Source: Gemmatimonadaceae bacterium
GTDB taxonomy: Bacteria > Gemmatimonadota > Gemmatimonadetes > Gemmatimonadales > Gemmatimonadaceae
Direction of reading: 5' to 3'
Assembly (NCBI GenBank): GCA_036504815.1
Contig: DASXUN010000003.1
Location: 62,001-126,000 of the forward strand
DNA length: 64,000 nucleotides
Position numbers and translations under genes: made by a program. Numbering within the stretch: position 1 is the first letter of the stretch; each line of letters begins with the position of its first letter. The notes below the pieces were generated by a model. The model saw only the letters and a list, made by a program, of their open reading frames with translations. It was not told where the DNA came from and did no database searches. Below, piece after piece: positions 26,835 through 63,243 of the stretch.

Positions 26835-27620
26835 GTGAATCAGACGACCGACCTCGAGGCGCGAGAGGCGAGCGCCGCGGCGGCCGGCGCCGCGGGGAAG
26901 CGCGCCTATGTCCAGCGGATGTTCTCGGACATCGCGCCCCGATACGACCTGCTCAACCGCGTGCTCAGCCTGGGCATCGATCGCTACTGGCGGCGGTTTG
27001 CACTCGCGAGGTTGGGCTGGGAGCGCGATCCGGCCGGCACCTTTCTCGATCTCTGCGCCGGCACGCTCGACGTCGCGTCGGCCTTGAGTGCGCGGACGGG
27101 CTTCCGGGGGCGGGTGGTCGGCGCTGATTTTGCGGAACCGATGTTGCGGGCGGGACGTTCGAAGCTGGCGGGGCGACCGATCACCCCGGTGGTGGCCGAT
27201 GCGTTGGCACTTCCGATGGCCGGCAGCAGTCTCTCCGGGGCGATCGTGGCCTTCGGCATCCGCAACGTTGCCGACCTTGACGCCTGCCTGCGTGAAGTGC
27301 GGAGAGCGTTGAAACCCGGGGCGCGGTTCGTCATCCTCGAGTTCTCCACGCCGCGGGTCTCGCTGGTGCGGAGGGTCTATCATGCGTACTTCCACCACGT
27401 GCTCCCGAAGATCGGCGGACTGGTGAGCGGGCATCGCACCGCGTACACGTACCTGCCGGATTCGGTGAAGAACTTCCCGGAGACGACGGAACTGGCGGCC
27501 CGGATGGAAGCGGCGGGCTATGTGGACGTAAGGTGGCGGACACTAACGTTTGGAATTGCCGCAGTGCATGTCGGGACTAACCCGGCTGATGGCGGATGGC
27601 AGAAGGCGGAGGGCAGATAG
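26835..27620 (+). CDS. menG: Demethylmenaquinone methyltransferase (UbiE/MenG)
   Basis: The 261-residue C-methyltransferase finishes menaquinone by methylating demethylmenaquinone. VQRMFSDIAPRYDLLNRVLSLGID and YWRRFALARL are UbiE signatures. The SAM loop is FLDLCAGTLDVASAL, where T replaces the common G after AG. FGIRNVADLDACLREVRRALKPG and YTYLPDSVKNFPE complete the family pattern. GTG at 26835 follows AAGG. The last 11 or so residues (ADGGWQKAEGR) are encoded by a heptad repeat array that also supplies the stop. It leads the menaquinone run, with the UbiD-type gene starting 2 bp after its stop. Confidence 0.93.
   Translation: MNQTTDLEAREASAAAAGAAGKRAYVQRMFSDIAPRYDLLNRVLSLGIDRYWRRFALARLGWERDPAGTFLDLCAGTLDVASALSARTGFRGRVVGADFAEPMLRAGRSKLAGRPITPVVADALALPMAGSSLSGAIVAFGIRNVADLDACLREVRRALKPGARFVILEFSTPRVSLVRRVYHAYFHHVLPKIGGLVSGHRTAYTYLPDSVKNFPETTELAARMEAAGYVDVRWRTLTFGIAAVHVGTNPADGGWQKAEGR
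27588..27615. repeat. Heptad repeat array inside the 3' end of menG
   Basis: Four 7-bp units (GATGGCG, GATGGCA, GAAGGCG, GAGGGCA) overlap the last codons of menG. They are read in frame as Asp-Gly-Gly-Trp and so on, and the stop follows at once. GGAGGGCAG in the last unit also lies just before the ATG of the next gene and may serve as its ribosome site. Confidence 0.85.
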
Positions 27621-27622
27621 GC

Positions 27623-29101
27623 ATGGCGATTGACTCAGTAGCCGAATTCATTGAGGCCATCGACGGCATCGGGGAACTGGTGCGCGTGACGGAGCCGGTG
27701 TCGGTGCATCTCGAGATGTGCGAGATCGCCGACCGCGCGATGAAGCTCCCCGGCGGCGGGCCGGCCCTGCTCTTCGAGCATCCCGTGCTGCGCGACGGCA
27801 CGCGTTCCGGCTATCCGGTTGCCATCAACCTGTTCGGTTCGATGAAACGGATGGCGCTCGCCCTCAACGTTGAATCACTCGACGAGCACGGCGCGCGCAT
27901 CACGCAGCTGCTGGACCTCAAGGTCCCCGAGGGGCTGGTCGGCAAGCTCTCGCTCCTCCCGCGGCTGTTCGAGGTCTCCAAGTTCCCGCCGCGCATGAAG
28001 AGCGGCGCCGCGCCGTGCCAGGAGATTGTCTGGCAGGGCGACGAGGTGGATCTCGACAAGATCCCGGTGCTCACGACGTGGCCGGAGGATGGCGGACCGT
28101 TTTTCACGATGACCGCCGTCATCAGCAAGGACCCGGCGCGCGGCATCCGCAACGTCGGGATGTACCGCGTGCAGCAGATGGGGAAGCGCGAGGTGGCGAT
28201 GCACTGGCAGCGCCACAAGACGGGGGCCGCGCACTGGCGCGAGATGGCCGAGCGCGGCGAGAAGATGCCGGTCTGCATCGTCATCGGTGCCGACCCGGCG
28301 TCGATGTACAGCGCGAGCGCGCCGCTGCCGCCGGGGATCGACGAGTTCATCTTCGCGGGCTTCCTGCGCCGTGATCCGGTGAAGCTGGTGAAGGCGGTGA
28401 CGAACGACCTCGAGGTGCCGTGGGATGCGGATCTCGTCCTCGAGGGGTACATCGACCCGGCGGAGGACCTCGTCGTCGAGGGGCCGTTCGGCGATCACAC
28501 GGGCTACTACTCCGAAGCCGACCTGTACCCCAAGGTGCACGTCACCGCCGTCACCATGCGGCGCGACATGACCTATGTGGCCACCATCGTCGGGCGCCCG
28601 CCGATGGAGGACTTCTACCTCGGCCATGCGACCGAGCGGATCTTCCTGCCGCTGATGAAGCTCACGACGCCGGAGATCGTCGACTACCACATGCCGGCCG
28701 AGGGCGGCTTCCACAATCTCGTCTTTGTTTCGATCAGGAAGAGTTACCCCGGACAGGCGTACAAGGTGATGAACGCACTGTGGGGGATGGGCCTGATGTC
28801 GCTCGCCAAGGTCCTCGTCGTGGTGGATGACTGGGTGAACGTGCGCAACACGCAGGAAGCGTGGTGGGTGGCGCTGAACAACATCGACCCCGAGCGCGAC
28901 GTCCGTTTCACGCTGGGGCCGGTGGACGTGCTCGACCATTCGAGCCGCGCCTTCACGTTCGGGTCCAAGATGGGACTCGACGCGACGAAGAAGATGCCGG
29001 AGGAGGGCTTCACGCGATCATGGCCGAAGGTCATTGAGATGGACGAGGCGACGAAGGCCAGGATGGAGGCCGTCTGGTCTCGGCTGGGGCTTGGCCAGTG
29101 A
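27623..29101 (+). CDS. mqnL: UbiD-family decarboxylase (menaquinone, MqnL-type)
   Basis: A 492-residue prenylated-FMN decarboxylase. Family features include RNVGMYRVQQMGKREVAMHWQRHK, which holds the cofactor/Mn-binding residues. PLPPGIDEFIFAGFLR and EGPFGDHTGYYSEADLYPKVHV contain the E-x..-E catalytic region. The ATG at 27623 is chosen over a start inside the repeat array. With a UbiX-type gene (cofactor maker) and a UbiA-type prenyltransferase in the same operon it fits the late futalosine-type menaquinone pathway (MqnL/MqnP/MqnM), since the classical Men route uses no UbiD. The pathway choice is inference; no mqnA-E gene is in view. Confidence 0.9.
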   Translation: MAIDSVAEFIEAIDGIGELVRVTEPVSVHLEMCEIADRAMKLPGGGPALLFEHPVLRDGTRSGYPVAINLFGSMKRMALALNVESLDEHGARITQLLDLKVPEGLVGKLSLLPRLFEVSKFPPRMKSGAAPCQEIVWQGDEVDLDKIPVLTTWPEDGGPFFTMTAVISKDPARGIRNVGMYRVQQMGKREVAMHWQRHKTGAAHWREMAERGEKMPVCIVIGADPASMYSASAPLPPGIDEFIFAGFLRRDPVKLVKAVTNDLEVPWDADLVLEGYIDPAEDLVVEGPFGDHTGYYSEADLYPKVHVTAVTMRRDMTYVATIVGRPPMEDFYLGHATERIFLPLMKLTTPEIVDYHMPAEGGFHNLVFVSIRKSYPGQAYKVMNALWGMGLMSLAKVLVVVDDWVNVRNTQEAWWVALNNIDPERDVRFTLGPVDVLDHSSRAFTFGSKMGLDATKKMPEEGFTRSWPKVIEMDEATKARMEAVWSRLGLGQ

Positions 29102-30000
29102 CCACGCCGGTGCGCGAAGGGCAGACCTACGGCGGCGCGTCGCGGTTCGTCCGCTACGTGAACTTCGTCAAGCTGCCGCACACCGTCTTCGCGCTCCCCT
29201 TCGCGCTGGTCGGGGTGACGCTGGCGAGCTGGCTGGCGCCGGTGACGCTGCCGACGGTTCTCTGGGTGGTGATCGCCTTCACCGCGGCGCGCTTTGCCGC
29301 GATGGGCTTCAACCGGATCGCCGACCGCCATTACGACGCGCTCAACCCGCGCACCGCGATGCGTGAACTGCCGATGGGCGCCATGAGCGTGGTGGAGGCG
29401 GCGACGAGCGTCGCCGTTGCCTCGCTGGTCTTCCTGTTCGCGGCGTGGCGCATCAACCCGCTCTGCCTGGCGCTCGCGCCGCTCGCGCTCGGTTGGGTGC
29501 TCTTCTACAGCTACACCAAGCGATTCACGCGCTGGGCGCACCTCGTGCTCGGGCTGGGACTCGGCATCGCGCCCGCCGGCGGGTATCTCGCCGTGACCGG
29601 GGCGTGGAGTGATCCATGGTGGCTGCTCCCCGCGCTGGCCGTGGCGGTGATGAGCTGGGTGGGGGGCTTCGACATCCTGTATGCGTTGCCCGACGCCGAG
29701 TTCGATCGCGCACAGGGACTCTATTCGATTCCCTCGACGATGGGGGTCACGACGGCGCTCCGCTTGGCACGTGCCCTGCACGCGCTCACCGTGGTTTCCC
29801 TGCTCGTGGCCGGCCTGGGGTCGGGCTCGGGCGCGCTCTATTTTGCCGGGGTCGTGGTGGCGGCGGGGATCCTCGGGTGGGAACATTCCCTGGTATCGTC
29901 CGATGACCTCTCGAAGCTCGACGCCGCGTTCTTCAGCGTGAACGGCGTGCTGAGCGTCACCTTCTTCCTCTTCGTGCTCGCCGAGCGGGTGTTCGCATGA
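29098..30000 (+). CDS. mqnP: UbiA-family prenyltransferase (menaquinone, MqnP-type)
   Basis: A 300-residue integral-membrane prenyltransferase with about eight helices. The first Asp-rich motif is NRIADRHYDALNPRTAMRELP (split), of NxxxDxxxD type. The second lies in DAEFDRAQGLYSIPSTMG. GTG at 29098 overlaps the previous TGA (GTGA). It would attach the polyprenyl chain to the aromatic menaquinone precursor. The downstream UbiX-type gene overlaps by ATGA, so all three are translationally coupled. Confidence 0.9.
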   Translation: MTTPVREGQTYGGASRFVRYVNFVKLPHTVFALPFALVGVTLASWLAPVTLPTVLWVVIAFTAARFAAMGFNRIADRHYDALNPRTAMRELPMGAMSVVEAATSVAVASLVFLFAAWRINPLCLALAPLALGWVLFYSYTKRFTRWAHLVLGLGLGIAPAGGYLAVTGAWSDPWWLLPALAVAVMSWVGGFDILYALPDAEFDRAQGLYSIPSTMGVTTALRLARALHALTVVSLLVAGLGSGSGALYFAGVVVAAGILGWEHSLVSSDDLSKLDAAFFSVNGVLSVTFFLFVLAERVFA

Positions 30001-30593
30001 GTGCACAACGCCCGATCATCATGGCCGTGACCGGCGCCTCGGGCGCGCCTTATGGCGTGCGGTTGCTGCAGGCGCTGGTGCAGGCCGAGCAGAAGGTGTC
30101 GCTGATCATAAGCGTTCACGGCTTGCGGCTGATCCAGACCGAGACGTCACTCGGCTCCATGGAAGGGCTGCGCGCGCATGTCGGCGCCGCGGCCTGGGAC
30201 CGGTGGGTGACGGTCTACGACGATGGCGACCGCGGCGCCGGGCCGGCGAGCGGTTCGCACCGCGCGCGCGCGATGGTGGTCTGCCCGTGTTCGATGGGAA
30301 CGCTGGCGGCGATTGCCGCGGGGACGAGCCGGTCGCTGGTGGAACGCGCCGCCGACGTGACGCTCAAGGAACGGCGCCCGCTGGTGCTCGTGACGCGCGA
30401 GACGCCGTTGTCGAGCATCCACCTGGAGAACATGTTGCGCGTCACCCAGGCGGGCGCGGTGGTGATGCCGGCGTCGCCGGGCTTCTACAACAAGCCATCC
30501 ACAATTGATGAACTGGTGGATTTCGTCGTCGCGCGGGTGCTCGATCACTTGGGTGTGGAGAACGGGCTGGCGCCGAGGTGGGGAGAGGGCTGA
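29997..30593 (+). CDS. mqnM: UbiX-family flavin prenyltransferase (MqnM-type)
   Basis: A 198-residue enzyme that makes prenylated FMN, the cofactor of the UbiD-type decarboxylase encoded two genes upstream. MAVTGASGAPYGVRLLQAL is the FMN-binding Ser/Gly loop. CPCSMGTLAAIAAGTSRSLVERAADVTLKERRPLVLVTRETPLS (in parts) and MPASPGFYNKPSTIDELVDFVVARVLDHLG are family signatures. The ATG overlaps the UbiA stop by 4 bp. A heptad array and a hairpin terminator follow. Confidence 0.93.
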   Translation: MSAQRPIIMAVTGASGAPYGVRLLQALVQAEQKVSLIISVHGLRLIQTETSLGSMEGLRAHVGAAAWDRWVTVYDDGDRGAGPASGSHRARAMVVCPCSMGTLAAIAAGTSRSLVERAADVTLKERRPLVLVTRETPLSSIHLENMLRVTQAGAVVMPASPGFYNKPSTIDELVDFVVARVLDHLGVENGLAPRWGEG

Positions 30594-32476: not shown

Positions 32477-35275
32477 TTGACGGTCCCACCGTGCGGTCGC
32501 CATGTTCTGAAAACCTCAACAAGGGTCCCGCGCCTGTCGACGAATTGCAGGAACTGCGGCGCCGAGATTGCCGACGGATCCAATTTCTGCAATCACTGCG
32601 GCCTCAACCTGACGCAGGAGTACGCGGTGCACGCCACGCTGGCGGTGCCCGTCCCTGCGAACAACGGGGCTGCGCTGGCGCGCGCGTCGGGAGACGCGTT
32701 CCAGCGGCTGAGCGTGTCGCTCGGTGAACGCTATGCGGTCGAGCGCGAACTCGGCCGGGGCGGCATGGCGACGGTTTACCTGGCCCGCGACACCAAGCAC
32801 GATCGCGAGGTCGCCATCAAGGTGCTCCTGCCCGAGCTGTCGGCATCGATCGGCGCCGAGCGGTTCGAGCGCGAGATCCGCATGGCGGCGAAGCTGCAGC
32901 ATCCGCACATCCTCAGCCTCTACGACTCAGGTGAGGCGGATGGGCTGCTGTTCTACGTGATGCCCTTCGTGCGGGGCGAGTCGCTGCGCGACCGCATCGA
33001 GCGCGAGGGGATGCTCCCCATTGACGACGCGATTGGCATCACGCTCGAGGTCGCGGACGCGTTGGGGCATGCGCACGACCTCGGCATCGTGCACCGCGAC
33101 ATCAAGCCCGAGAACATCCTGCTGCAGGGCGGCCACGCCCTCGTGGCCGACTTCGGGATCGCGCGCGCGGTCAGCGAGGCCGGTGCGCAGAAGCTGACGC
33201 AGACGGGCATGGCCGTTGGCACGCCCGTGTACATGGCGCCGGAGCAGTCGCTCGGACAGAGCGTCGGCCCGACCGCCGATCTTTACAGTCTTGGCTGCGT
33301 GCTGTACGAGATGCTGGCGGGGGAACCGCCATTCACCGGCAAGAACGCCGCGCAGATCATGGCGCGGCACGCCATGGAGGCCGTGCCGAGCATCCGGATC
33401 GTGCGGAATACGGTGCCGGAGGAGATCGAGGAGGCGATCTTCCGCGTGCTCGCGAAGGTGCCCGCGGATCGCCCGCAGAACGCCGCGGCGTTCGCGGAGT
33501 CGCTCGGCGTGATGCTCGGTGCCACCGCATCCATGCGCGTGCTGACGGGCGCGACAGCGACGCGCCGTGCCATTGGGAGTGTGCCGACGAGCAGCGGGCG
33601 CCGCTCGCAGGAATCGCTCTTTGCGCTGGAGACCCGGCCGCCCACGCCGGCGTGGAAGCGACCGCGCGTGCTGGCGACTGCGCTCACGACTGTTGCCGTC
33701 GCGGCCGGCGCCTGGTGGTTCGGCCCGTTTCACGGTCCGCGGGTGACCGTGGGCGGACCCGATGCCCGCCGAATCGCCGTGCTGTACTTCCGCGATGTCA
33801 GCAAGGACTCGAGTCTCGGCCCACTGGCCGACGGCCTCACCGAAGGGCTCATTCGCACCCTCAATACGTCATCGAGCCTGACGGTCATCTCGCAGAACGG
33901 TGTCGAACGGTTTCGCGCGTCCACGGCGTCCGACGACAGCATCGCCCGCGCCTTGCGGGCGGGTTACCTGGTGCGCGGGGAGGTCGAACCGCAGGGCGAG
34001 CGCGTCAGCGTCAGCGTCAACCTCCTCGATGCCAGCGGTGCGCCGCTCAGTCGCGCCGCCTTCGCGATGCCGGCCGGGAATCCGCTGGCGATGCGCGACA
34101 CGCTGACGGTGGTTGTGTCGGACCTGGTTCGGCAACAGATCGGCTCGGACCTGAAGCTCAGGGAACAGCGCGGAAGCACCAACTCCGAAGCGTGGCTGCT
34201 GCTCCAGCGCGGCGTGCAGCGGCAGAAGCGGGGTGACGTGCTCCACGCCAGCGGTGACGCGGAGGGGCGCGAACGGGAGTTCGCGGCCGCCGATTCGCTT
34301 TATGCGGAGGCGGAGAAAGCTGACCACGGGTGGTCGGAGCCGGCCGCACGGCAGGCGGCGCTCGCCTATCGCCGGTCACGCCTGGCGGGAAACGACGCGG
34401 CGGCGATCAGGAAATGGGTCGAGATCGGCATGGGACACGCCAACCGCGCGCTCGGGATCGACGCGAACGACGCGGATGCGTGGGAAGTGCGCGGCAATCT
34501 GCGCTACTTCCCACTCGTGATGTCGCTCGAGCCCGACGAGGCGCGGCGTCGCCAGGAGCTCGACTCGGCGCGCGCGGACCTGGAGCGCGCGACCACGATC
34601 AACACGAGACAGGCCGGCGCCTACGCCACGCTGTCGCATCTCTACTACCAGATCCCGTCGCTCACCGAGACCGACGTGTATCTCGCGGCGCAGAGCGCAT
34701 TGAACGCCGATGAGTTTCTGGCGAACGCCAACCTGATCCTGTCACGGCTTTTCTACGCCTCCTACGACCTGGGCCAGTTTGACCGGGCGCAGCAGTGGTG
34801 CGACCAGGCGCGGCAGCGGTTCCCGGGTTTTCCGCGCGCCGAGAGCTGCCGGTTGTACATGCTGACCGCACCGGGTGCGACCCCCAACATCGACGAAGCC
34901 TGGCGGCTCGCCGACACCTCCGTGGCGCTGTATCCGCCGGCGGCGCGGCCCGCCGAGCGACTGGTGCACGACATGCTCGTGGCGGCCGTGATTGCGAAGG
35001 CCAGCCGGCAGCGGCCGGCGCTGGCTGACAGCGCGCGCCACGTTGCCAAGCGCTCCGAAGGAACCGCTGAGCTGCACAAGACGCGCGATCCTGCCTTCTA
35101 CGGCGCCCGCGTCTACACGATCCTTGGGGACAAGGTCGAAGCGGTTCGCCTGCTCAAGGAGTACTTGGCGGCGAATCCCGGAAAGGATCAGGGCTTTCGC
35201 GAGAATGCCGGATGGTGGTTCCGCGAGATCGAAACCGATCCCGGCTTCCGCCGCGCCGTGGGCGCGACACGCTGA
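32477..35275 (+). CDS. Zinc-ribbon Ser/Thr protein kinase with FlgO-like and TPR-type tail
   Basis: A large transmembrane kinase of up to 932 residues. A zinc ribbon (CRNCGAEIADGSNFCNHCG, CxxC twice, about 24-42) leads. The Hanks-type kinase domain follows (about 80-350), with GRGGMATVYLARD, VAIKVL, HRDIKPENILL, DFGIA and GTPVYMAPEQ, and all catalytic residues are present. A membrane helix near 395-411 precedes an extracellular FlgO/TolB-like domain (RRIAVLYFRDVSKDSSLGPL split) and an alpha-helical repeat region to the end. The recorded start is TTG at 32477. CTG at 32534, preceded by AAGGGT, would begin right at the zinc ribbon and cannot be ruled out. It probably senses an envelope condition. 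Confidence 0.9.
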   Translation: MTVPPCGRHVLKTSTRVPRLSTNCRNCGAEIADGSNFCNHCGLNLTQEYAVHATLAVPVPANNGAALARASGDAFQRLSVSLGERYAVERELGRGGMATVYLARDTKHDREVAIKVLLPELSASIGAERFEREIRMAAKLQHPHILSLYDSGEADGLLFYVMPFVRGESLRDRIEREGMLPIDDAIGITLEVADALGHAHDLGIVHRDIKPENILLQGGHALVADFGIARAVSEAGAQKLTQTGMAVGTPVYMAPEQSLGQSVGPTADLYSLGCVLYEMLAGEPPFTGKNAAQIMARHAMEAVPSIRIVRNTVPEEIEEAIFRVLAKVPADRPQNAAAFAESLGVMLGATASMRVLTGATATRRAIGSVPTSSGRRSQESLFALETRPPTPAWKRPRVLATALTTVAVAAGAWWFGPFHGPRVTVGGPDARRIAVLYFRDVSKDSSLGPLADGLTEGLIRTLNTSSSLTVISQNGVERFRASTASDDSIARALRAGYLVRGEVEPQGERVSVSVNLLDASGAPLSRAAFAMPAGNPLAMRDTLTVVVSDLVRQQIGSDLKLREQRGSTNSEAWLLLQRGVQRQKRGDVLHASGDAEGREREFAAADSLYAEAEKADHGWSEPAARQAALAYRRSRLAGNDAAAIRKWVEIGMGHANRALGIDANDADAWEVRGNLRYFPLVMSLEPDEARRRQELDSARADLERATTINTRQAGAYATLSHLYYQIPSLTETDVYLAAQSALNADEFLANANLILSRLFYASYDLGQFDRAQQWCDQARQRFPGFPRAESCRLYMLTAPGATPNIDEAWRLADTSVALYPPAARPAERLVHDMLVAAVIAKASRQRPALADSARHVAKRSEGTAELHKTRDPAFYGARVYTILGDKVEAVRLLKEYLAANPGKDQGFRENAGWWFREIETDPGFRRAVGATR

Positions 35276-38208: not shown

Positions 38209-39870
38209 TCACTCCGGCTCCAGGAACCCGCAGGGGCACAGGTCGATGCACTTGCCGCACGCCACGCACCGCTCCGCGGACAGCTCGAAGTACTGACCCC
38301 GCGCCGGATGATCGAGCCGCTGTAGCCCCGCGTTGTTGCAGTACATGAAGCATTGCTCGCAGCCGAAGCAGAGGCCGCACGAGAGGCAGCGCTCCGCTTC
38401 CGCAAGGAACTCCGCCTCCGTGATGGTCTGCGCCAACTCGAGATCGGGTTCGGCGCGCCACGCGTCGGGGCCGCGTCGAGACAGGGGGACTGGCGCGCGG
38501 CCGGCATAGAAGTCTGTCCGGACGGCGCGCTCGGCAAGCGGGGGACGAGCATCGGTGGGAGGAAGTGGGAGGCCGCGCAGGCGGGCATGCGCGAGTTCCG
38601 CCGCCTGTCGGCCCTGGCGAATCGCCCCTCCTGCCAAGCCGAGGCCACGCGAGTCGCCCCCCGCCCAGACATGGTCGGTCAGCGGATGGTCCGCGTTGGA
38701 CTCGAGCCACGGCGTCGTCGGCGCGAGCGCCCCGAGTCCATCCCAGTCGGGCTGCTGGGACACGGCCGCGATGACGGAATCCACGGCGATCACTTGCTCG
38801 GAACCGGGAATTGCAATCGGTGAGCGGCGTCCCGAACGGTCGGGCTCGCCGAGTGCCATGCGCTGCACGACGAGGGAGCAGATCCGGGAGTTCTCGCGCA
38901 CGATCTCAACGGGCGCCGTGAGGAACTCGATGCGCACGCCCTCGGCCAGCGCGTCGTCGACCTCGGCGTCGATTGCGGGCATCTCGTGCCGCGTGCGCCG
39001 GTAGAGCAGCGTCACGTCAGCGCCGGTGCGGCGGGCGCAGCGTGCCGCATCAATGGCGGTGTTGCCGCCGCCCACCACCGCGACGCGTCGTCCGAGCGCC
39101 ACGCCGATGCCGCGATTCACTTGCGACAGGTAACCGGTTCCCGTCCACGTGCCGGATCCCTCCTCTCCGGGAATCCCCAGCGTGAGGCCGCGGTTGGCGC
39201 CGATGCCGAGGAAAAGCGTGCGATGACGGTCACGCAGCAGGTCCAGCGAGACGTCGCGCCCCACCGCGGTGCCGAGGTGCAGGGTGACCCCGAGATCGAG
39301 GATCCGACGCACCTCGGCCGCCAGCACGTCCTCGGGCAGGCGATACTGGGGAATGCCGAACTGCAGCATCCCGCCCGGCACCGATTCGCGCTCGTAAATG
39401 CTGACGGCATAACCGCGCCGGGCCATTTGGTATGCAAAGGAGAATCCGGCGGGGCCGGCGCCGATCACGCCGACAGACTCCGGCTGGCTTCCCGCCGCGG
39501 CGAGGCGCGGCAATGACAGTCCGCGGGCGAGCGCCCAGTCGCCAAGGAAACGTTCCAGCGCGTTGACGGCGACCGCGTCGTCCTTCTGCGCGCGGGTGCA
39601 ATGGTCCTGACAGGGATGCGGGCAGACGCGTCCGAGCGTTGCCGGGAACGGATTCACCGCCGTCAGCATGTACCACGCGTTTTCGAGTGCCTCAGGAACG
39701 GACAACCCGAGCTTGCGGCGCTGGGCGACGATGCCGATCCACGCGCGCGCGTCGCCACCGCCGACGCAGTCCCCGCCGCAGGGGGCGCGTTTCTCCCTCC
39801 GGGAAGGGAAGAGCCGGGCCGCGGCCAGCGAGGTCGCGTCCGGCACCTGGTCCGAGGGCTTCGCTGTCAC
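38209..39870 (-). CDS. GltD-like NAD(P)H oxidoreductase with C-terminal two-cluster ferredoxin
   Basis: A 553-residue flavo-iron-sulfur protein. The N-terminal GltD-type cluster is CGGDCVGG with NPFPATLGRVCPHPCQDHC (about 31-91). The FAD loop is GVIGAGPAGFSFAYQ (about 134). The NAD(P)H loop is VAVVGGGNTAIDAARCARRTG (in parts). The tail carries CLSCGLCFGCEQC and CVACGKCIDLCPC, a 2[4Fe-4S] ferredoxin, and ends LEPE. Such proteins move electrons between NAD(P)H and ferredoxin or a partner enzyme. GTG at 39870 overlaps the stop of the cyclic-nucleotide-binding gene (GTGA). It is the last gene of the cyclase operon. Confidence 0.9.
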   Translation of the reverse strand: MTAKPSDQVPDATSLAAARLFPSRREKRAPCGGDCVGGGDARAWIGIVAQRRKLGLSVPEALENAWYMLTAVNPFPATLGRVCPHPCQDHCTRAQKDDAVAVNALERFLGDWALARGLSLPRLAAAGSQPESVGVIGAGPAGFSFAYQMARRGYAVSIYERESVPGGMLQFGIPQYRLPEDVLAAEVRRILDLGVTLHLGTAVGRDVSLDLLRDRHRTLFLGIGANRGLTLGIPGEEGSGTWTGTGYLSQVNRGIGVALGRRVAVVGGGNTAIDAARCARRTGADVTLLYRRTRHEMPAIDAEVDDALAEGVRIEFLTAPVEIVRENSRICSLVVQRMALGEPDRSGRRSPIAIPGSEQVIAVDSVIAAVSQQPDWDGLGALAPTTPWLESNADHPLTDHVWAGGDSRGLGLAGGAIRQGRQAAELAHARLRGLPLPPTDARPPLAERAVRTDFYAGRAPVPLSRRGPDAWRAEPDLELAQTITEAEFLAEAERCLSCGLCFGCEQCFMYCNNAGLQRLDHPARGQYFELSAERCVACGKCIDLCPCGFLEPE

Positions 39871-40280
39871 AGGCGCCGGCGCTCCGGGCCGTCGGTGCGC
39901 GGGCCCTGGGGGCCGACGCGCCGCTCCCCGACGCCCAAGGTGAGGTGGCGAATCCGCTGCGACATCATCTTCACGAGGGTGAACGCGAGCGTGGGATCTT
40001 CCTGGATGCGCCGCAGGAAGTTCTTCTTGTCGATGGTGAGCACGCGCGCCTCGCCAAGCGCGCGCACGGTGGCCGAGCGCACCTCGCGTTCGAAGATGGC
40101 CATCTCCCCGAAGATCGCCCCCTTCTCCATCACCGCGACCCGTTTCGGCGGACGGCCCGGCAGAGTGACCAGCACCTCCAGCCGGCCTTCCTGCAGCGTG
40201 AACATGCAGTCCCCGGCTTCACCCTGCGTGACAATGGTCTCGCCGTCGGCGTAGACGCGGCCGAGTGCGTTACTCGCCAT
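39867..40280 (-). CDS. Stand-alone cyclic-nucleotide-binding domain protein
   Basis: A 137-residue protein that is nearly all a CAP/CRP-type cNMP-binding domain. The phosphate-binding cassette is intact: IFGEMAIFEREVRSATVRA, with Gly-Glu and the Arg-Ser-Ala core. There is no helix-turn-helix, so it is not a CRP-type transcription factor; it must act on a partner protein. ATG at 40280 starts 11 bp inside the end of the flavoprotein gene, and its stop overlaps the oxidoreductase start. A cyclase in the same operon suggests the ligand is made locally. Confidence 0.9.
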   Translation of the reverse strand: MASNALGRVYADGETIVTQGEAGDCMFTLQEGRLEVLVTLPGRPPKRVAVMEKGAIFGEMAIFEREVRSATVRALGEARVLTIDKKNFLRRIQEDPTLAFTLVKMMSQRIRHLTLGVGERRVGPQGPRTDGPERRRL

Positions 40281-41688
40281 GGTTTCTTCCTCTCCGCGAG
40301 GCGCCGCCGAACGGCAGGCTGCCCGCAATCACGTTCCATGCCAGCATGACGGGGAACTGCGGCCGCATGGTGCGCTTCAGGATGTCGCGGTACGGCGCGC
40401 TCCCCGTGAAGGTGTCCCACAGGACGCTGCTCATCTGGCCGTCGCTGCCCGCTTGCGCCTGCTCCCGTGCCGTCATGCGCACCACGCCCCGCCGCAGCAC
40501 GCTGGAGTGCTGGATCAGGTGCGTGACGCCGAAGACGACCCTGGCGATCATGTTGTCGACGTCGAGCGCGCGGCACGCCGGCCAGAAGTGCCGGCGAAAA
40601 TCCTCCGTCGAGACGCCCGAAAAGACGGCGGTCTTGGCGGCGGCCTTGGCGGTCCGGTAGGCCGAGCCGATGCCATCCTTGTACAGGCGCGCGACGCCGC
40701 TGTCGCCGATCCAGACGATCCGGTCACCGAACGGACGCGTCGCGGCCTCCACGTTGATGCGCGGATAGCAGTGACACGCCAGCGGCGGGATCGTGCCGCC
40801 CGGGAAGCACCGCTGCACTTCCGCCGACCGGAGAAAGTTCTCCACCAGCGTTTCGTCGAGGTCGTCACCGAGCAGGCAGAGCGTCACGAACTCTCCCTTC
40901 GGGACGATGGCGGCGAATCCGAGGCGCGGAATGTCAAGCAGGAAGACATGCATCGACGTGCCGAACGTCGCGCGCACGACGTCGGCGCCGAGCCGAAACT
41001 CGCAGATGAACGTGCGTTGCGTGGCCGGCGCCGCGAACCGGTGCGCGGCATCGCTGAACAGGTTCATCGCCTGGGAGTTGACGCCGGTCGCCACCACGAG
41101 CAGGTCGAAGTCGGTCGCCGATCCGTCGGGGCAGGTCACGCGCGGCCGGCCGTCGATCCACTCGACGGATTGCGCCATCTTCCGAACGACCCTGGCGCCC
41201 TGCGACGCCGAGAGGTCCAGCAGGTGGCGGTCGAAACCGGCGACCTCGACGGGTTCGGACTCCCGCGGTCCGTTGCCGCGATAGACTGCCGCGATGCGCT
41301 TCTCGTCGCGCGGCGACTGAATGCGCACGTCGCCCACATCGGTGTGCAGGATGTACGAATCGATGCCCTGCTGCACGACCGACGGCGGGAGATTGATGCC
41401 TTCCGCGGCGAGCATCTGCACGAGCGATTCGGAGACGATGCCGCCGCAGTGGTTGCAGCCCGCGGGGCCGCGGTGCGTGAAGAAGCGCGGCTCGAAGATG
41501 TCCACGCGCAGGTCAAGGCCGAGCGAGTCGGCCATTGCCAGCAGGAAGATGGTGAAGAACGAGCCGGCGGGTCCGCCTCCAATGACGCCAACGCGGGACC
41601 CGTCCTGGAGCGCAAGCGATCCGTCGCGGCGAGCGGCCCTGCCGCGGAGCCGGGCGAGTGGCCCAAGGAACGACGACGGGGCGGTCAC
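40270..41688 (-). CDS. FAD-dependent oxidoreductase (geranylgeranyl-reductase-like)
   Basis: A 472-residue flavoprotein starting at GTG 41688 in overlap with the cyclase stop. The dinucleotide loop is GVIGGGPAGSFFTIFLL (about 33-49). HRGPAGCNHCGGIVSESLV holds a CxxC (about 79-82) that could be redox-active or bind metal. FDLLVVATG and RIVWIGDSGVARLYKDGIGSAYRTA are the later FAD motifs, of the geranylgeranyl reductase/phenol-hydroxylase superfamily. No membrane segment is clear. The substrate is unknown; a polyprenyl, quinone or carotenoid-like lipid is possible. Between the cyclase and the cNMP receptor it is a likely target of that signal. Confidence 0.85.
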   Translation of the reverse strand: MTAPSSFLGPLARLRGRAARRDGSLALQDGSRVGVIGGGPAGSFFTIFLLAMADSLGLDLRVDIFEPRFFTHRGPAGCNHCGGIVSESLVQMLAAEGINLPPSVVQQGIDSYILHTDVGDVRIQSPRDEKRIAAVYRGNGPRESEPVEVAGFDRHLLDLSASQGARVVRKMAQSVEWIDGRPRVTCPDGSATDFDLLVVATGVNSQAMNLFSDAAHRFAAPATQRTFICEFRLGADVVRATFGTSMHVFLLDIPRLGFAAIVPKGEFVTLCLLGDDLDETLVENFLRSAEVQRCFPGGTIPPLACHCYPRINVEAATRPFGDRIVWIGDSGVARLYKDGIGSAYRTAKAAAKTAVFSGVSTEDFRRHFWPACRALDVDNMIARVVFGVTHLIQHSSVLRRGVVRMTAREQAQAGSDGQMSSVLWDTFTGSAPYRDILKRTMRPQFPVMLAWNVIAGSLPFGGASRRGRNHGE

Positions 41689-42764
41689 GGGCCCTCCGGC
41701 AGCCGCAGGGCGAAGATCTTGTCGGGGCGATCGAAGCCCTTCGCTTGGTGGACACCCCGGTCGAGAAACTCCAGCGGCGCTCCCGGTGAGGCGCGCTGTG
41801 CCTGCTGCACCATCTGGCGCGTGCCAGGACAGGCCAGAATCCTGCCGATCTCGTCATTGGCGAACTTCTCGAGGCGGCATGCCAGCACGACGGGCTCGCC
41901 GACCATCGAGAGTCCGACCGGGGTGTCCCCGCCGAAGGAGTCGATGACCACGCCGCCGGAGGCGAGCGCCCAGTCCATCCTCAGCGGAAATCCTCGCAAC
42001 GTCCAGATCGCGTTGTCCGTGGCCAGCTGCCGCGCGAGCGCGTCCAGCGCGATGGCGGCGTGGCAGGCGGCAACGGCCTGTGCACCGTCGATGCCGCCCT
42101 CCCAGAAGGCCAGCACGGCGTCGCCCGGAAACTCCTTCAGCGTGCCGCCGTGCGCCTCGACCATGGCGGTCAGGCGCTGGAAGACCCGGCTGACGCAACG
42201 CTGCAACTCCGCCGAGGGCGCTTCGCGCACCATCACCGTGTAGTCGCGAATGTCGCCCACCAGCACGGTCGCCAACGTCAGCTGCGTCTGGACGCTCGTA
42301 CGCTTGCGCGGCGCGTCGACCGCCACCGGCGGTGCCACGTCGCCCTGCAGCTGGAGCAGCAGGCCGCTGCCGAGATCCAGCATCTGGCCGACCAGCAATT
42401 CCGCCTCAACGTTTGGCATCAGACGACGCCCATCCAGCCGAGTGCCGTTGCGGCTCACGTCGCGCACGAAGCAGCGGCCGTCGGCGTGCTGGGTGATGAT
42501 GCAGTGGCGACTCGACACGTGCGCCGCGCGCACGAGGAGTTGTCCAGGAGTCACGGCACGACCGTCGTCGAGGCGACCGATCTCGAGTTGGTCGAAGAAC
42601 TCGTACATGCCGTTCGGTTCGGCTCCGCCGACGAAGACGAGCCGCTTGGACGGCGGACCATTCGGGCGTGCCGCCTGGGGTTCGAACCGCACGACGTGCA
42701 CCGCCGCGAGGGTGTCCTCACCCCGCGATTCCGATAAATGCGCGCCTGCGTCGGGCAGCGTCAC
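41685..42764 (-). CDS. FHA-domain class III nucleotide cyclase
   Basis: GTG at 42764, with GGGGG just upstream, gives 359 residues. An FHA phosphothreonine-binding domain (about 45-125) shows LEIGRLDDGR, SSRHCIITQH and VSRNGTRLDGR. The class III cyclase domain (about 165-335) has the first metal Asp in VLVGDIRDYT and the second in EFPGDAVLAFWEG. In the transition-state segment GEPVVLACRLEKFA the Arg is kept, but Val stands where Asn is usual (VNxAxRL). Activity is therefore likely but not certain, and cAMP or cGMP cannot be told apart. The FHA domain suggests control by Ser/Thr kinases such as the one at 32477. Confidence 0.88.
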   Translation of the reverse strand: MTLPDAGAHLSESRGEDTLAAVHVVRFEPQAARPNGPPSKRLVFVGGAEPNGMYEFFDQLEIGRLDDGRAVTPGQLLVRAAHVSSRHCIITQHADGRCFVRDVSRNGTRLDGRRLMPNVEAELLVGQMLDLGSGLLLQLQGDVAPPVAVDAPRKRTSVQTQLTLATVLVGDIRDYTVMVREAPSAELQRCVSRVFQRLTAMVEAHGGTLKEFPGDAVLAFWEGGIDGAQAVAACHAAIALDALARQLATDNAIWTLRGFPLRMDWALASGGVVIDSFGGDTPVGLSMVGEPVVLACRLEKFANDEIGRILACPGTRQMVQQAQRASPGAPLEFLDRGVHQAKGFDRPDKIFALRLPEGP

Positions 42765-43017: not shown

Positions 43018-44469
43018 ATGAAGATTCTGGTCACTGGCGCAACTGGCTATGTCGGCGGGCGGCTCGTTCCCCGCCTGCTCGCGCTTGGCCATGACGTCCA
43101 CTGCTTCGCGCGCGATCCCTCCCACCTCGCCGGACGTGGATGGCAGGGCGTCACCGTGCACCGCGGCGACGCCTTGAGCGCCGGCAGCTTCCTCCCGGTG
43201 ATGGAGGGGGTAGATGTCGCCTACTACCTCATCCACTCCATGTCGCAGCCGGAGGGCCGGTTCGAGGATCATGACCGCTTCGCCGCCGAGCACTTTGGCA
43301 TGACGGCGGCGGCGGCCGGCGTTCGGCGGATCATCTATCTGGGGGGGCTCGGCAAGGCCGACGAGCGGCTCTCGCCACATCTGGCCTCACGTCATGAGGT
43401 CGGCCACATCCTCCGCTCCTCCGGCGTACCGGTCACGGAATTCCGTGCGGCCGTCATCGTCGGTTCCGGGAGCATCTCGTTCGAGATCATCCGCTACCTG
43501 ACGGAAGGACTTCCCGCGATGATGACGCCGCGCTGGATGTCCACCCGCTGCCAGCCGATCTCTATCGCCGACGTGCTGGACTACCTGGTGCAGGCCCTCG
43601 CCGAGCAGGCATCGGTCGGGCGCATCCTGGAGATCGGTGGTCCGGATGTCCTGACGTACCGCGAGATGATCCTGGGCTATGCCGCGGAACGGGCGCTGAA
43701 ACGCGTCGTCGTGCCGATTCCACTCCTGACGCCGTGGCTGTCGTCACAGTTCCTGCACTGGCTCACCCCCATTCCGGCGTCGATCTCGCGCGCGCTCATC
43801 GATGGCATGCGCAACGAGGTCGTGGTCAACGATCACGCCGCCGAGCAGATGTTCAGCGTGCAGCACGTCCCGTATCGCGAGGCGGTGTGGCGGGCGCTGC
43901 GCCGCATTCAGTCCGGCAGCGTCGATACGTACTGGTCCGGGGCGGTGCAGGGGCTCAAGACCGGTACGTCGCTGACGGTCACGGAGGGCATGATCATCGA
44001 TGACCGGCGGGTCGAGTCGGCGGCGACGCCGGATGCCGTGTTCCGGACCTTCGCCGGCATTGGCGGGGACCGGGGATGGTTCTACGGCGACTGGGGATGG
44101 CGGCTGCGCGGGGCGATGGACCGCGCGATCGGCGGCGTCGGGCTGCGGCGCGGCCGCCGCAATCCCAATGAGCTGCGCACTGGCGATGCCCTTGATTTCT
44201 GGCGAGTCGAGGAGGTGATCCCCGGCCGCCTAGTGCGATTGCGTGCCGAGATGAAGCTGCCCGGCCGGGCGTGGCTGCAGTTCGAGGTCGCCGAGATGCC
44301 CAACGGACGCTCGCTGCTCGTGCAACGGGCCTTCTTCGAGCCTCACGGCTTGGCCGGGCTGCTCTACTGGTATGGGTTGTACGCCATCCACGAGTTCTTC
44401 TTCGAAGGCATGTCGCGTGCCATCGCACGGCGGGCGGAAGCTCTGCCGCCCTCCGCGCAGGCCCGATAA
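43018..44469 (+). CDS. NAD(P)-binding SDR-like protein fused to DUF2867
   Basis: A 483-residue two-part protein. The N-terminal atypical short-chain dehydrogenase (about 1-300) starts KILVTGATGYVGGRLVPRLL, has GVDVAYYLIHSM, and RIIYLGGLGKADERLSPHLASR, all typical of the NAD(P)H-binding family near complex I NDUFA9. The C-terminal part from about 320 (LTVTEGMIIDDRRVESAA, FWRVEEVIPGRLVRLRAEMKLPGRAWLQFEV in parts) matches DUF2867-type SRPBCC-like domains that follow such SDRs. Substrate unknown. The DNA just upstream holds a good promoter with a palindrome. Confidence 0.85.
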   Translation: MKILVTGATGYVGGRLVPRLLALGHDVHCFARDPSHLAGRGWQGVTVHRGDALSAGSFLPVMEGVDVAYYLIHSMSQPEGRFEDHDRFAAEHFGMTAAAAGVRRIIYLGGLGKADERLSPHLASRHEVGHILRSSGVPVTEFRAAVIVGSGSISFEIIRYLTEGLPAMMTPRWMSTRCQPISIADVLDYLVQALAEQASVGRILEIGGPDVLTYREMILGYAAERALKRVVVPIPLLTPWLSSQFLHWLTPIPASISRALIDGMRNEVVVNDHAAEQMFSVQHVPYREAVWRALRRIQSGSVDTYWSGAVQGLKTGTSLTVTEGMIIDDRRVESAATPDAVFRTFAGIGGDRGWFYGDWGWRLRGAMDRAIGGVGLRRGRRNPNELRTGDALDFWRVEEVIPGRLVRLRAEMKLPGRAWLQFEVAEMPNGRSLLVQRAFFEPHGLAGLLYWYGLYAIHEFFFEGMSRAIARRAEALPPSAQAR

Positions 44470-59237: not shown

Positions 59238-59858
59238 ATGAACTCCGCCCCGGTCGTCATCCTCGCCTCGCAATCGCCCCGCCGCCGCGACCTGCTCGAC
59301 CTCATCGGCATCGCGCACGAGGTCCGGCCGGCCGACATCGACGAATCCGTGCTGCCGGCCGAGGCGCCCGCGCCGCACGCCGAGCGCCTCGCCCGCGCCA
59401 AGGCGCACGCGCTGGCGGAGGCGCACCCGCACGCGGTGGTCATCGCCGCCGACACCATCGTCGTGGTGGACGGCGACATCCTGGGCAAGCCGCGCGACGC
59501 CGCGCACGCCGCGCAGATGCTGCGCCGGCTCGCCGGGCGCGAGCACACCGTGTTCACGGCCATCGCCGTGGCGCGCGACGCGCGCACGGAGAGCGCGGTG
59601 GAGGACGTGCGCGTGACCTTTCGCGCGCTGACCGACGCGGAGATCCGCGCCTACATCGCCACCCGCGAGCCGATGGACAAGGCCGGGGCGTACGGCATCC
59701 AGGGGTACGGCGCGACCATCGTCGAGCGGGTCGACGGCGACTACTTCAGCGTGATGGGGCTCGGGCTGCGGCGGCTCGTCGAGCTGCTCGCCCGCGTCGG
59801 CGTGCACTACGCCTTCGCGGACGGCCTCATCGACGGCGCTACGCGATCAGGAGCTTGA
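59238..59858 (+). CDS. maf: Maf-family nucleoside triphosphate pyrophosphatase
   Basis: A 206-residue house-cleaning pyrophosphatase acting on non-canonical or excess dNTPs such as dTTP/UTP. ILASQSPRRRDLLDLIGI is the Maf signature (SxSPRR). VIAADTIVVVDGDILGKP holds the catalytic Asp-Thr, and MDKAGAYGIQGYG the substrate loop. The start is ATG 59238, 34 bp from the metZ-like ATG on the other strand. Its last 20 bp overlap the end of nsrR in convergent orientation. Confidence 0.94.
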   Translation: MNSAPVVILASQSPRRRDLLDLIGIAHEVRPADIDESVLPAEAPAPHAERLARAKAHALAEAHPHAVVIAADTIVVVDGDILGKPRDAAHAAQMLRRLAGREHTVFTAIAVARDARTESAVEDVRVTFRALTDAEIRAYIATREPMDKAGAYGIQGYGATIVERVDGDYFSVMGLGLRRLVELLARVGVHYAFADGLIDGATRSGA

Positions 59859-60270
59859 GCAGCTTGCGCTGTGCCTTCGTGAAGTCGGCGAGCGTGTAGC
59901 GGTCGAGCACGTCGAGAAAGGCCTTGAGCGCCTCATCGAGCGCCGGGGCCATCCCGCACGACGGCGCGATGGGACAGGTGTTCTGCGCCGGATCGAAGCA
60001 CTCGACGAGCCGGAAGTTCTCCTCGGTCTGCCGCACGACCGCCCCGATATTGATCTTGGCCGGTTCGACGATGAGGCGAACGCCGCCCCCGCGCCCGCGC
60101 ATCGTCTCCACGTAGCCCAGGTGGGCGAGCCGCTGGACGACCTTCACGAGGTGGTCCTCGGACAGCGCCATGCGCCGCGCGATGGTGCCGACCGTCTCCG
60201 TCTCGCCCGGATGCAGGGCGAGATAGGTGAGGCAGCGCAGGGCGTTATCAGTGAACCGGGTCAGGTGCAT
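59839..60270 (-). CDS. nsrR: Rrf2-family nitric-oxide-sensing repressor NsrR
   Basis: A 143-residue winged-helix repressor. ATG at 60270 gives MHLTRFTDNALRCL. Cysteines at 91, 99 and 105 (ECF...NTCPIAPSCGM) match the three cluster-binding Cys of NsrR. Asp8 sits where Streptomyces NsrR uses an Asp as fourth ligand. NFRLVECF and ALEAFLxVLDRYTLADFT-like sequence (AFLDVLDRYTLADFT) support NsrR over IscR. It is divergent from nosZ, and the shared 253-bp region has a 23-bp site of NsrR-box layout. It should loosen from DNA when NO damages its cluster. Confidence 0.9.
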   Translation of the reverse strand: MHLTRFTDNALRCLTYLALHPGETETVGTIARRMALSEDHLVKVVQRLAHLGYVETMRGRGGGVRLIVEPAKINIGAVVRQTEENFRLVECFDPAQNTCPIAPSCGMAPALDEALKAFLDVLDRYTLADFTKAQRKLLKLLIA

Positions 60271-60391
60271 GCGGTGCGGCCTCGCAACGTGCGGTGGAAA
60301 GACGCCGGAAGGATACCGGATTGCCCGCCGTGCTTGGATCGGACTTCTTCCTGACAAACCAGAAGGCGAATCCCGACACGATTTCAGTACC

Positions 60392-60421
60392 TTGCCTGAC
60401 TTTTCAAGTGGAATCTAGTAT
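60392..60421 (+). promoter_or_regulatory. Candidate nosZ promoter
   Basis: TTGCCT (60392-60397) and TAGTAT (60416-60421) are separated by 18 bp, in an AT-rich island about 100 bp before the nosZ ATG. The -10 lies inside the NsrR-box candidate. Other hexamers are possible. Confidence 0.45.
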
Positions 60422-60428
60422 ACCACTT
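60406..60428. promoter_or_regulatory. Candidate NsrR operator
   Basis: AAGTGG-N11-CCACTT, a 23-bp site in which 8 of 11 base pairs are symmetric. The 11-1-11 spacing and AAG/CTT ends match the described NsrR box layout (AAG-ATG-type half sites). It covers the -10 of the nosZ promoter candidate and sits between nsrR and nosZ. A further half-site-like AAGATACA is at 60443-60450. Confidence 0.6.
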
Positions 60429-60523
60429 TACCACCGCAGCGTAAGATACACCACATTAGGCGGACAGGCTGTCCGCGGCCCCGGCAGCCCTGGTCTCCCC
60501 ACCTGTTTCGAAGAGGCACCTCC

Positions 60524-62536
60524 ATGGCAACGTTCCCGAAGTTCCGCACTCTCGCCGGCGCTGGCGTGATCGCGTCGGCGGCCCTGCTCGCCTTTGCCTG
60601 CGCCAAGCGGCCGTCCAGCGGCGGCCTCATCAGCGCGGACGCCGCCAAGGCGGTGTACGTGGCGCCGGGGCAGTATGACGAGTTCTACGCCTTCATGTCC
60701 GGCGGTTTCAACGGGCAGATCGGCGTCTACGGGCTCCCGTCCGGCCGGCGCCTCAAGACGATCCCCGTCTTCTCGCAGTACCCCGAGAACGGCTACGGCT
60801 ACAGCGAAGAGACCAAGCCGATGCTCAACACGAGCTACGGCTTCGTGCCCTGGGACGACACGCACCACCCGGCGCTGTCGCAGACCAACGGCGAAGACGA
60901 CGGACGCTGGCTCTTCATCAACGCCAACAACACCCCGCGCATCGCGCGCATCGACCTCACCCGCTTCGAGACCGAGGAGATCCTCGAGATCCCGAATGCC
61001 GGCGGCAACCACGGCTCGCCGTACATCACGCAGAACAGCGAGTATGTGATGTCGGCCACGCGCTTCAGCGTGCCGGTGCCGAACAGCGACGTCCCGATCA
61101 GCGACTTCAAGAAGCGCTTCAAGGGGCAGATCTCGTTCATCCGCGCCGACCAGCCGGGGAAGATGGCGATCGCGTTCCAGATGATCGTGCCGGGCTTCAA
61201 CTATGACCTGGCGCGCGCCGGAAAGGGGCCGAGCAACGGCTGGGTCTTCTTCTCGATGTACAACACCGAGCAGGCCAACTCGCTGCTCGAGGTGAACGCC
61301 TCGCAGAACGACAAGGACTTCGTCGCCGCCGTCAACTGGAAGGCGATCGAGGGCTGCGCGAAGGCGGGCAAGACGAAGAACGTCGCCGCCAGCTACGTGC
61401 ACAACTTCACCGACGAGTTCACGCGCGTGGCGAAGTCCGAGACCGTCACTTCGGTGCCGCAGTTCGAGGCCAAGGACTGCCCGGGCGCGATCTACTTCCT
61501 CCCGACGCCCAAGTCGCCGCACGGCGCCGACGTGGACCCGACGGGCGAGTACATCGTCGCCGGCGGCAAGCTGGCCTCCGTCATCCCGGTGCACTCGTTC
61601 TCCAAGATGATCAAGGCCATCGAGGCCAAGGCCTTCGAAGGCAACATTGATGGCATCCCGGTGCTGAAGTACGACGCGACGCTTGCCGGCGAGGTCAAGA
61701 ACCCCGGCCTCGGCCCCCTGCACACCGAGTTCGACGGCAAGGGCTACGCGTACACCTCGTTCTTCATCTCGTCGGAAGTCGTGAAGTGGAAGCTCGGCAC
61801 GTGGGAAGTCGTGGACCGCGTCCCGACGTACTACTCGGTGGGCCACCTGATGATTCCGGGCGGCGGCACGATGAAGCCGAACGCCAAGTACATGGTGGCG
61901 ATGGACAAGATCACCAAGGACCGCTACCTGCCCACGGGTCCCGAGCTCACGCAGAGCGCGCAGCTCTATGACATCTCGGGCGACAAGATGAAGCTCCTGC
62001 TCGACTTCCCCACTGAGGGCGAGCCGCACTACGCCCAGGCCATCGAGGCGAAGAAGATCAAGGACAAGCAGATCAAGTTCTTCAAGCTGGCCGACAGCAA
62101 GGCGCCGCACGTCTCGCGCTCGGAGAAGGAGACGGGGATCAGCCGCGAAGGGAAGAAGGTGCACGTGCGCATGACCGCCATCCGCTCGCACTTCTCGCCG
62201 GACAACATCGAAGGGGTCCAGGTGGGTGACACGGTGCTGTTCCACGTCACCAACCTCGAGCAGGACTGGGACGTCCCGCATGGCTTCGCCGTGATGGGCG
62301 CCACCAACGGCGAGCTGCTCATCATGCCGGGTGAGACCCGCACGCTGCAGTGGACCCCGAAGAAGCCCGGCGTCTACCCGATGTATTGCACCGACTTCTG
62401 CTCGGCGCTGCACCAGGAAATGCAGGGGTACGTCCGCGTCTCGCCGGCCGGCAGTTCGGTGGCGCTGAGCGGTGTCACCTCCAGAGGTCCGCAGTCCCTG
62501 CCCAAGGCCGAGGCCGGCCCGAAGCAGCAGCAGTAG
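60524..62536 (+). CDS. nosZ: Nitrous-oxide reductase, Sec-type (clade II-like) lipoprotein
   Basis: NosZ reduces N2O to N2 in the periplasm. 670 residues. The N-terminus (VIASAALLAFAC, Cys26) is a lipoprotein/Sec signal without a twin-Arg motif, as in clade II enzymes. CuZ ligands start at DDTHHP (about 111-116) and continue with GNHGSPY, and YVHNFTDEFTRV. The CuA domain at the C-terminus has HFSPDNIEGVQVGD, the His in WDVPHGFAVMG, and CTDFCSALHQEMQG with Cys622, Cys626, His630 and Met633. All copper ligands I can check are present. It is first in the nos gene set and faces nsrR. Confidence 0.97.
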   Translation: MATFPKFRTLAGAGVIASAALLAFACAKRPSSGGLISADAAKAVYVAPGQYDEFYAFMSGGFNGQIGVYGLPSGRRLKTIPVFSQYPENGYGYSEETKPMLNTSYGFVPWDDTHHPALSQTNGEDDGRWLFINANNTPRIARIDLTRFETEEILEIPNAGGNHGSPYITQNSEYVMSATRFSVPVPNSDVPISDFKKRFKGQISFIRADQPGKMAIAFQMIVPGFNYDLARAGKGPSNGWVFFSMYNTEQANSLLEVNASQNDKDFVAAVNWKAIEGCAKAGKTKNVAASYVHNFTDEFTRVAKSETVTSVPQFEAKDCPGAIYFLPTPKSPHGADVDPTGEYIVAGGKLASVIPVHSFSKMIKAIEAKAFEGNIDGIPVLKYDATLAGEVKNPGLGPLHTEFDGKGYAYTSFFISSEVVKWKLGTWEVVDRVPTYYSVGHLMIPGGGTMKPNAKYMVAMDKITKDRYLPTGPELTQSAQLYDISGDKMKLLLDFPTEGEPHYAQAIEAKKIKDKQIKFFKLADSKAPHVSRSEKETGISREGKKVHVRMTAIRSHFSPDNIEGVQVGDTVLFHVTNLEQDWDVPHGFAVMGATNGELLIMPGETRTLQWTPKKPGVYPMYCTDFCSALHQEMQGYVRVSPAGSSVALSGVTSRGPQSLPKAEAGPKQQQ

Positions 62537-62618
62537 CAGGATCGGTCCGGGGGCGCGGCGGTCCCGTCGCCCGCCCCCTGGCCGCCCCCGCGTCTCCGTC
62601 TCCCCACGCGAGTCCACA

Positions 62619-63218: not shown

Positions 63219-63243
63219 CGCCGGTCACAGCTCCCAGACTCCC

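Follow-up and report, generated by a model that had tools for sequence, protein, structure and literature searches.

Genes and features of the locus

The locus lies within a window of 64,000 nucleotides, which is the whole stretch of DNA that was analysed, from a 3.5 Mb genome assembly that is 99% complete. Four open reading frames on the minus strand, with consecutive overlaps of 4, 11 and 4 bp, encode in the direction of reading a nucleotidyl cyclase (CYC), a flavoprotein, a cyclic-nucleotide-binding protein (CNB) and a GltD-like oxidoreductase (GLTD). Open reading frame coordinates together with Pfam and structure matches confirmed the four genes, their domains and the overlaps of 4-11 bp that a preliminary description of this DNA had reported. 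The features are as follows.

38209..39870, minus strand: GLTD, GltD-like NAD(P)H oxidoreductase with a C-terminal 2[4Fe-4S] module, 553 aa, core gene 3 (PRK12771 model; Pfam)
38230..38388, minus strand: 2[4Fe-4S] module of GLTD, Cys 495-547, two CxxCxxCxxxC motifs (cysteines invariant in five relatives)
39867..40280, minus strand: CNB, stand-alone cyclic-nucleotide-binding protein, 137 aa from the ATG at 40280, core gene 2 (Pfam PF00027)
40077..40109, minus strand: phosphate-binding cassette of CNB, G58-E59 ... R68 (conservation; aligned with PKG cassettes)
40270..41688, minus strand: flavoprotein of the GGR/FixC fold, 472 aa, core gene 1 (AlphaFold; structural matches)
40768..40776, minus strand: C305-x-C307 motif of the flavoprotein, invariant (may form a metal or Fe-S site together with the CxxC)
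41446..41457, minus strand: C78-N-H-C81 motif of the flavoprotein (C81 aligns with a conserved Cys of a GGR paralogue)
41685..42764, minus strand: CYC, FHA plus class III nucleotidyl cyclase, 359 aa (Pfam FHA; CyaB/Cya2 structure matches)
41811..42272, minus strand: cyclase domain of CYC, residues 165-318 (alignment with class III cyclase structures)
42369..42557, minus strand: FHA domain of CYC, residues 70-132 (Pfam PF00498)
43018..44469, plus strand: divergent SDR-DUF2867 protein (neighbour families; membership of the module uncertain)

Rfam gave zero matches within the window. A plasmid or phage origin of the module was rejected, as no flavoprotein match was found in plasmid or phage records. 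Elsewhere in the window, genes for a UbiE/MenG-like protein (by eye), UbiD, UbiA and a UbiX-like flavoprotein, apparently of late quinone biosynthesis, lie on the plus strand at 26835-30593, 8 kb from the module, and an Rrf2/NsrR-like regulator (by eye), a nitrous oxide reductase (nos propeller) and then NosL- and NosD-like genes occupy 59839-63998.

A flavoprotein of the geranylgeranyl reductase/FixC fold group

No Pfam family matches the flavoprotein, and its match to TIGR02032 (GG-red-SF) is weak (E=1.6e-7, 31.3 bits, cut-off 158.8). Its AlphaFold model (pLDDT 85) has as its best structural match the archaeal geranylgeranyl reductase (GGR) 3oz2 (Z 31.3, rmsd 3.0 over 361 residues), followed by FixC 7koe_C (Z 29.4) and GGR 3atq (Z 28.2), while hydroxylases and halogenases that share this fold rank lower (Z 25-27 for the wider hydroxylase fold group). 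By its predicted structure, the flavoprotein is a member of the geranylgeranyl reductase/FixC fold group. The earlier designation as an FAD oxidoreductase with a CxxC stands for the motif, which is C78-N-H-C81, while the membership of this fold group had gone unrecognised.

Cysteines 78, 81, 305 and 307 are present in 83/83 sequences, three of them from outgroup relatives with identities of about 32%; C78 and C81 were part of one scan pattern, C305 and C307 of none, and no pattern was used in finding the outgroup. A paralogue encoded beside the outgroup proteins scores better as a GGR and keeps only the equivalent of C81. That the four cysteines are jointly present or absent suggests that they may belong to one common site, for instance an Fe-S cluster. 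In the alignment, the invariant C81 falls on the Cys that precedes the GG motif in the GGR paralogue, and it matches the Cys47-type feature, as a cysteine near the flavin at that position is characteristic of GGRs (PMC10821996). PxxxWxFP, the catalytic motif of GGRs (PMC10821996), is absent from the flavoprotein, in which the likely equivalent stretch, PRLGFAAIVPKG, has no Trp, so the substrate may not be an isoprenoid. Because of this absence and the TIGR02032 score under the cut-off, the protein was rejected as a bona fide GGR and is referred to as GGR-like.

The same features bear on whether the flavoprotein might instead be FixC/ETF-QO-like, passing electrons from NAD(P)H and GLTD to the quinone pool, so that the cyclic nucleotide would tune respiration and not lipid saturation. 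The second rank of FixC among the structural matches, at Z 29.4 compared with 31.3 for GGR, the missing PxxxWxFP and the origin of carriers from sediments and other redox-variable habitats, as given in record titles, would fit such a role, but the alignment of C81 with the GGR cysteine (PMC10821996) and the lack of ETF genes among the neighbours with families checked speak against it, and we regard it as rather unlikely.

Other flavoproteins of this kind were observed in different settings. Tandem flavoproteins, with no CNB beside them, occur in loci L025-L029 and L016 (another class of the phylum), where one member of the pair has the four cysteines and the other is closer to classical GGR; pyridine-nucleotide transhydrogenase-like genes (by eye) lie near three of these tandems. 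In two Acidobacteriota (L048, 1560-2729, and L079), the module is flanked by a divergently oriented paralogue of the classical GGR-like type.

The cyclic-nucleotide-binding protein and the GltD-like oxidoreductase

The sole Pfam domain in the 137 aa of CNB is cNMP_binding (PF00027, E=4e-21), and Pfam found no DNA-binding (helix-turn-helix) domain, in agreement with the preliminary description; a role as a CRP/FNR transcription factor was rejected on these grounds. The phosphate-binding cassette is intact, with Gly58 in 72/72, Glu59 in 71/72 and Arg68 in 72/72 sequences and Ser or Thr at position 69 in 70/72. The best PDB matches of the CNB profile are cGMP- and cAMP-dependent kinases, then Bd1971 and the SthK channel. 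Judged from these residues, CNB can probably bind a cyclic nucleotide.

GLTD matches Pyr_redox_2 (E=1.3e-23), Fer4_20 (8e-13) and Fer4_7 (5e-6), the last a 4Fe-4S dicluster domain. Its full-length match to PRK12771 scores 459.6 bits, just under the cut-off of 516, and it has the Fer4_20 domain, the FAD/NAD(P)H domains and the 2[4Fe-4S] tail over its full length, as in the PRK12771 type. A DsrL role for GLTD was rejected, as the genome has no dsrA.

Three genes recur as a unit across phyla

When 84,980 species genomes were scanned with the flavoprotein as the sole query, 86 relatives were obtained, of which 80 were kept; since neither partner was used as a query, the counts of adjacent CNB and GLTD genes are not biased towards them. 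Genes outside the core were called by an in-house script. The loci come mostly from metagenome-assembled genomes, some probably misbinned, and by record title they represent about nine phyla: Proteobacteria, Gemmatimonadota, Acidobacteriota, Bacteroidota, Desulfobacterota, Chlorobiota, Planctomycetota (Scalindua), Neomarinimicrobiota and Sumerlaeota. Of the 80 loci, 72 have a CNB that directly follows the flavoprotein (50), directly precedes it (17) or is fused to it (5), and in 54 a GltD-like gene is a direct neighbour. Gene order varies, as in the 17 loci where CNB comes first, while the same gene set is kept. This recurrence of gene content and order across phyla is far above chance.

The five fusions of CNB to the flavoprotein are from Desulfobacterota, Neomarinimicrobiota, Scalindua and one genome labelled Pseudomonadota, and one of them was modelled with a pTM of 0.85; in one further locus CNB is fused to GLTD. 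These fusions argue for protein contact and for control of electron flow by CNB, and thus support the earlier proposal that CNB acts by protein contact.

Several observations count against the reading that we propose below. GLTD is non-adjacent in 26/80 loci, although in some of these the contig ends too early to show a neighbour, and none was found near the five CNB-flavoprotein fusions, in whose genomes only more distantly related GltD-like copies were found. CNB is missing beside the flavoprotein in 7-8 relatives, mostly Bacteroidota. In two Acidobacteriota that have no adjacent GLTD, a full-length GltD-like protein with 48-49% identity is encoded elsewhere in the genome.

The module is patchily distributed. 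A flavoprotein relative was found in 13/150 Gemmatimonadota genomes and in 1/4 sampled genomes of the window's genus, which makes it an accessory element. The trio of flavoprotein, CNB and GltD-like genes occurs together in five genomes belonging to the same order or class, just one of which has the FHA-cyclase. In the flavoprotein tree, the window groups with locus L030, next to Betaproteobacteria and apart from the other Gemmatimonadota, a position that suggests transfer of the module between phyla.

The conserved unit is the last three genes, not all four. Of the four-gene unit in the preliminary description, a widely conserved unit across about nine phyla is upheld, but only the trio is constant and the FHA-cyclase is exchangeable. 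It is very likely, to judge from the comparative sequence data, that the three genes function together. An operon may be maintained even when its products do not interact physically, and the patchy occurrence of the module and its apparent movement between phyla would also be expected if unrelated functions were co-transcribed and kept together by chance or co-transfer; fusions in two different pairings, a shuffled order of otherwise unchanged gene content and an occurrence in about nine phyla make this highly improbable.

The cyclase is exchangeable

The FHA domain of CYC is recognised by Pfam (E=6e-9). Its cyclase domain has no match to PF00211 at 1e-3, and the C-terminal half matches the solved class III cyclases CyaB (3r5g, E=3e-13) and Cya2 (2w01, E=1.8e-8). 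In the class III cyclase alignment, both metal-binding aspartates and the transition-state Arg are kept. The site of the ATP-specifying Lys is occupied by a Glu in CYC and in its one full-length relative, aligned with the Glu that sets base specificity in Cya2 (PMC5995499), and the second base-specifying site has a Ser, which is listed among guanylyl cyclase residues (PMC4215837). The Glu in place of the ATP-specific Lys predicts cGMP as the product of CYC. The transition-state Asn is replaced by Val in the window and its relative, so activity is not assured; Ma1120 is active with Ala at this position (PMC4215837). Several other cyclases neighbouring the module keep the Lys, and the ligand may thus differ between lineages.

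A cyclase lies near the module in 14 loci, with differing sensor parts: FHA, TPR, FecR-TPR-GAF, RyR plus TPR-S, TPR-S, CHASE2, receiver and AAA-TPR. The cyclase domain in L068 was detected by a local class III cyclase model and is unreported by Pfam. By this model, cyclases account for 13/261 genes within two places of the module and 1/596 further out (Fisher p=1.6e-6), or 10/258 within two places when the three seed sequences are left out (p=4.5e-5). The presence or absence of a cyclase changes at least 11 times on the flavoprotein tree, and at least one class III cyclase is encoded in 32/34 tested carrier genomes. The full-length FHA-cyclase was found in 2/150 genomes of the phylum, the window genome and one other, which rules it out as a constant part of the module. 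The place beside the trio is filled by several interchangeable cyclases, of which the FHA-cyclase is one; the earlier inclusion of a cyclase in the module is borne out by the enrichment, but not for this particular form.

Most loci are without an adjacent cyclase, which also counts against the reading proposed below. This absence, together with the divergence of the window cyclase, would be accounted for if CNB were a structural scaffold or a sensor of a different ligand and the enzyme were not regulated by a cyclic nucleotide. Given the phosphate-binding Arg, invariant in 72/72 sequences, the Glu in 71/72, the enrichment of cyclases beside the module and their presence in 32/34 carrier genomes, we consider this improbable, and regulation of the enzyme by a ligand of CNB likely.

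Other putative signalling genes were observed near the module. A gene at 32477-35275 on the plus strand of the window, 3 kb from the module, encodes a Ser/Thr protein kinase that has a zinc ribbon at its N-terminus and might serve the FHA domain of CYC as a phosphorylation partner. Sensor histidine kinases lie beside the module in L050 (PAS type), L053, L093 and L094. A family of about 215 aa without a Pfam match (c10) is found near it in L046 (7674-8321), L049, L050, L053, L067 and L096, from Woeseiaceae and relatives; its match to the cyclase model is weak (about 1e-5) and it was left out of the cyclase counts.

Neighbouring genes point to a hydrophobic substrate

SRPBCC (Polyketide_cyc2) proteins adjoin the module in 17 loci, and 16 loci, with the window among them, have an SDR-DUF2867 protein in its vicinity; START-like SRPBCC and SDR-DUF2867 neighbours are found in 33 loci altogether. 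Near the outgroup genes lies either an SDR with a fused SRPBCC domain or an SDR by itself. SRPBCC is a fold for hydrophobic ligands. Such neighbours point to a hydrophobic substrate without naming one.

Proposed mechanism

The best explanation of these results, to which we assign a probability of about 0.6, is that the three proteins are one functional unit in which electrons pass from NAD(P)H through GLTD and the flavoprotein to a hydrophobic substrate under cyclic-nucleotide control via CNB. The three core proteins probably form one complex. GLTD would take hydride from NAD(P)H onto its FAD, from which electrons would pass to the C-terminal 2[4Fe-4S] module and on to the GGR/FixC-type flavoprotein, possibly through a cluster held by its four invariant cysteines. 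This direction, from NAD(P)H to the flavoprotein, is fairly likely. A GGR that requires a ferredoxin encoded beside it is known, and the feeding of GGR and FixC by ferredoxin or partner proteins (PMC10821996) supports a partner-fed flavoprotein. The flavoprotein would reduce a hydrophobic substrate, most likely of the isoprenoid type, although we hold an isoprenoid or lipid substrate to be somewhat short of an even chance. The small CNB would contact both GLTD and the flavoprotein, and cAMP or cGMP would switch electron delivery. A class III cyclase, its sensor part recruited per lineage, would supply the ligand; here this would be the FHA-cyclase. A more far-reaching version, in which the cyclic nucleotide gates flow from NAD(P)H through the ferredoxin clusters to a GGR-like flavoprotein with an Fe-S cluster of its own and thereby alters membrane isoprenoids or quinones on a signal, is tentative and, taken as a whole, less likely than not.

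Bacterial targets of cyclic nucleotides are mostly transcription factors, with few channels and enzymes. The module looks like an undescribed route by which cAMP or cGMP controls the electron supply of an enzyme directly and not via gene expression. If so, a second messenger would directly control electron flow via a three-protein redox unit in many phyla, and a function could be assigned to genes annotated as oxidoreductase, cyclic-nucleotide-binding protein or glutamate synthase subunit. The natural fusions allow testing with a single polypeptide.

Comparison with known systems

Literature searches of open-licence papers found no description of the gene set and nothing relevant to it, in keeping with the earlier statement that no named system has this exact set. 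Parts of the module have known counterparts. Archaeal GGRs (3oz2, 3atq and the GGR of Methanosarcina acetivorans with its ferredoxin) share with the flavoprotein the fold and the cysteine near the flavin, and likewise take electrons from a neighbouring Fe-S protein, whereas the flavoprotein of the module is without PxxxWxFP and has three further invariant cysteines, and the module has a cyclic-nucleotide-binding subunit and a GltD-like donor in place of a small ferredoxin. The DsrL/PRK12771 family (relatives in PDB 9bov and 8oh5) has in common with GLTD the Fer4_20 domain, the FAD/NAD(P)H domains and the 2[4Fe-4S] tail, and thus the design of an NAD(P)H:acceptor oxidoreductase, but the partner of GLTD is a GGR-like flavoprotein instead of DsrAB, and GLTD is linked or fused to CNB. 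The FixABCX system shares the FixC (FixC/ETF-QO) fold and a flavoprotein that receives electrons from Fe-S or flavin partners, while the module is without ETF or FixX and has the GltD-like donor, the cysteine motifs and CNB. Cya2, a guanylyl cyclase of Synechocystis, has in common with CYC the Glu at the base-specifying site, and differs from it in that CYC has FHA and not CHASE2, Ser and not Gly at the second site, and Val instead of the transition-state Asn. In the EAL enzyme Bd1971 and the mycobacterial acetyltransferase Pat, a CNB domain controls an enzyme directly without DNA binding; in contrast to this phosphodiesterase and this acetyltransferase, the module is a redox chain, and its CNB is usually a separate subunit.
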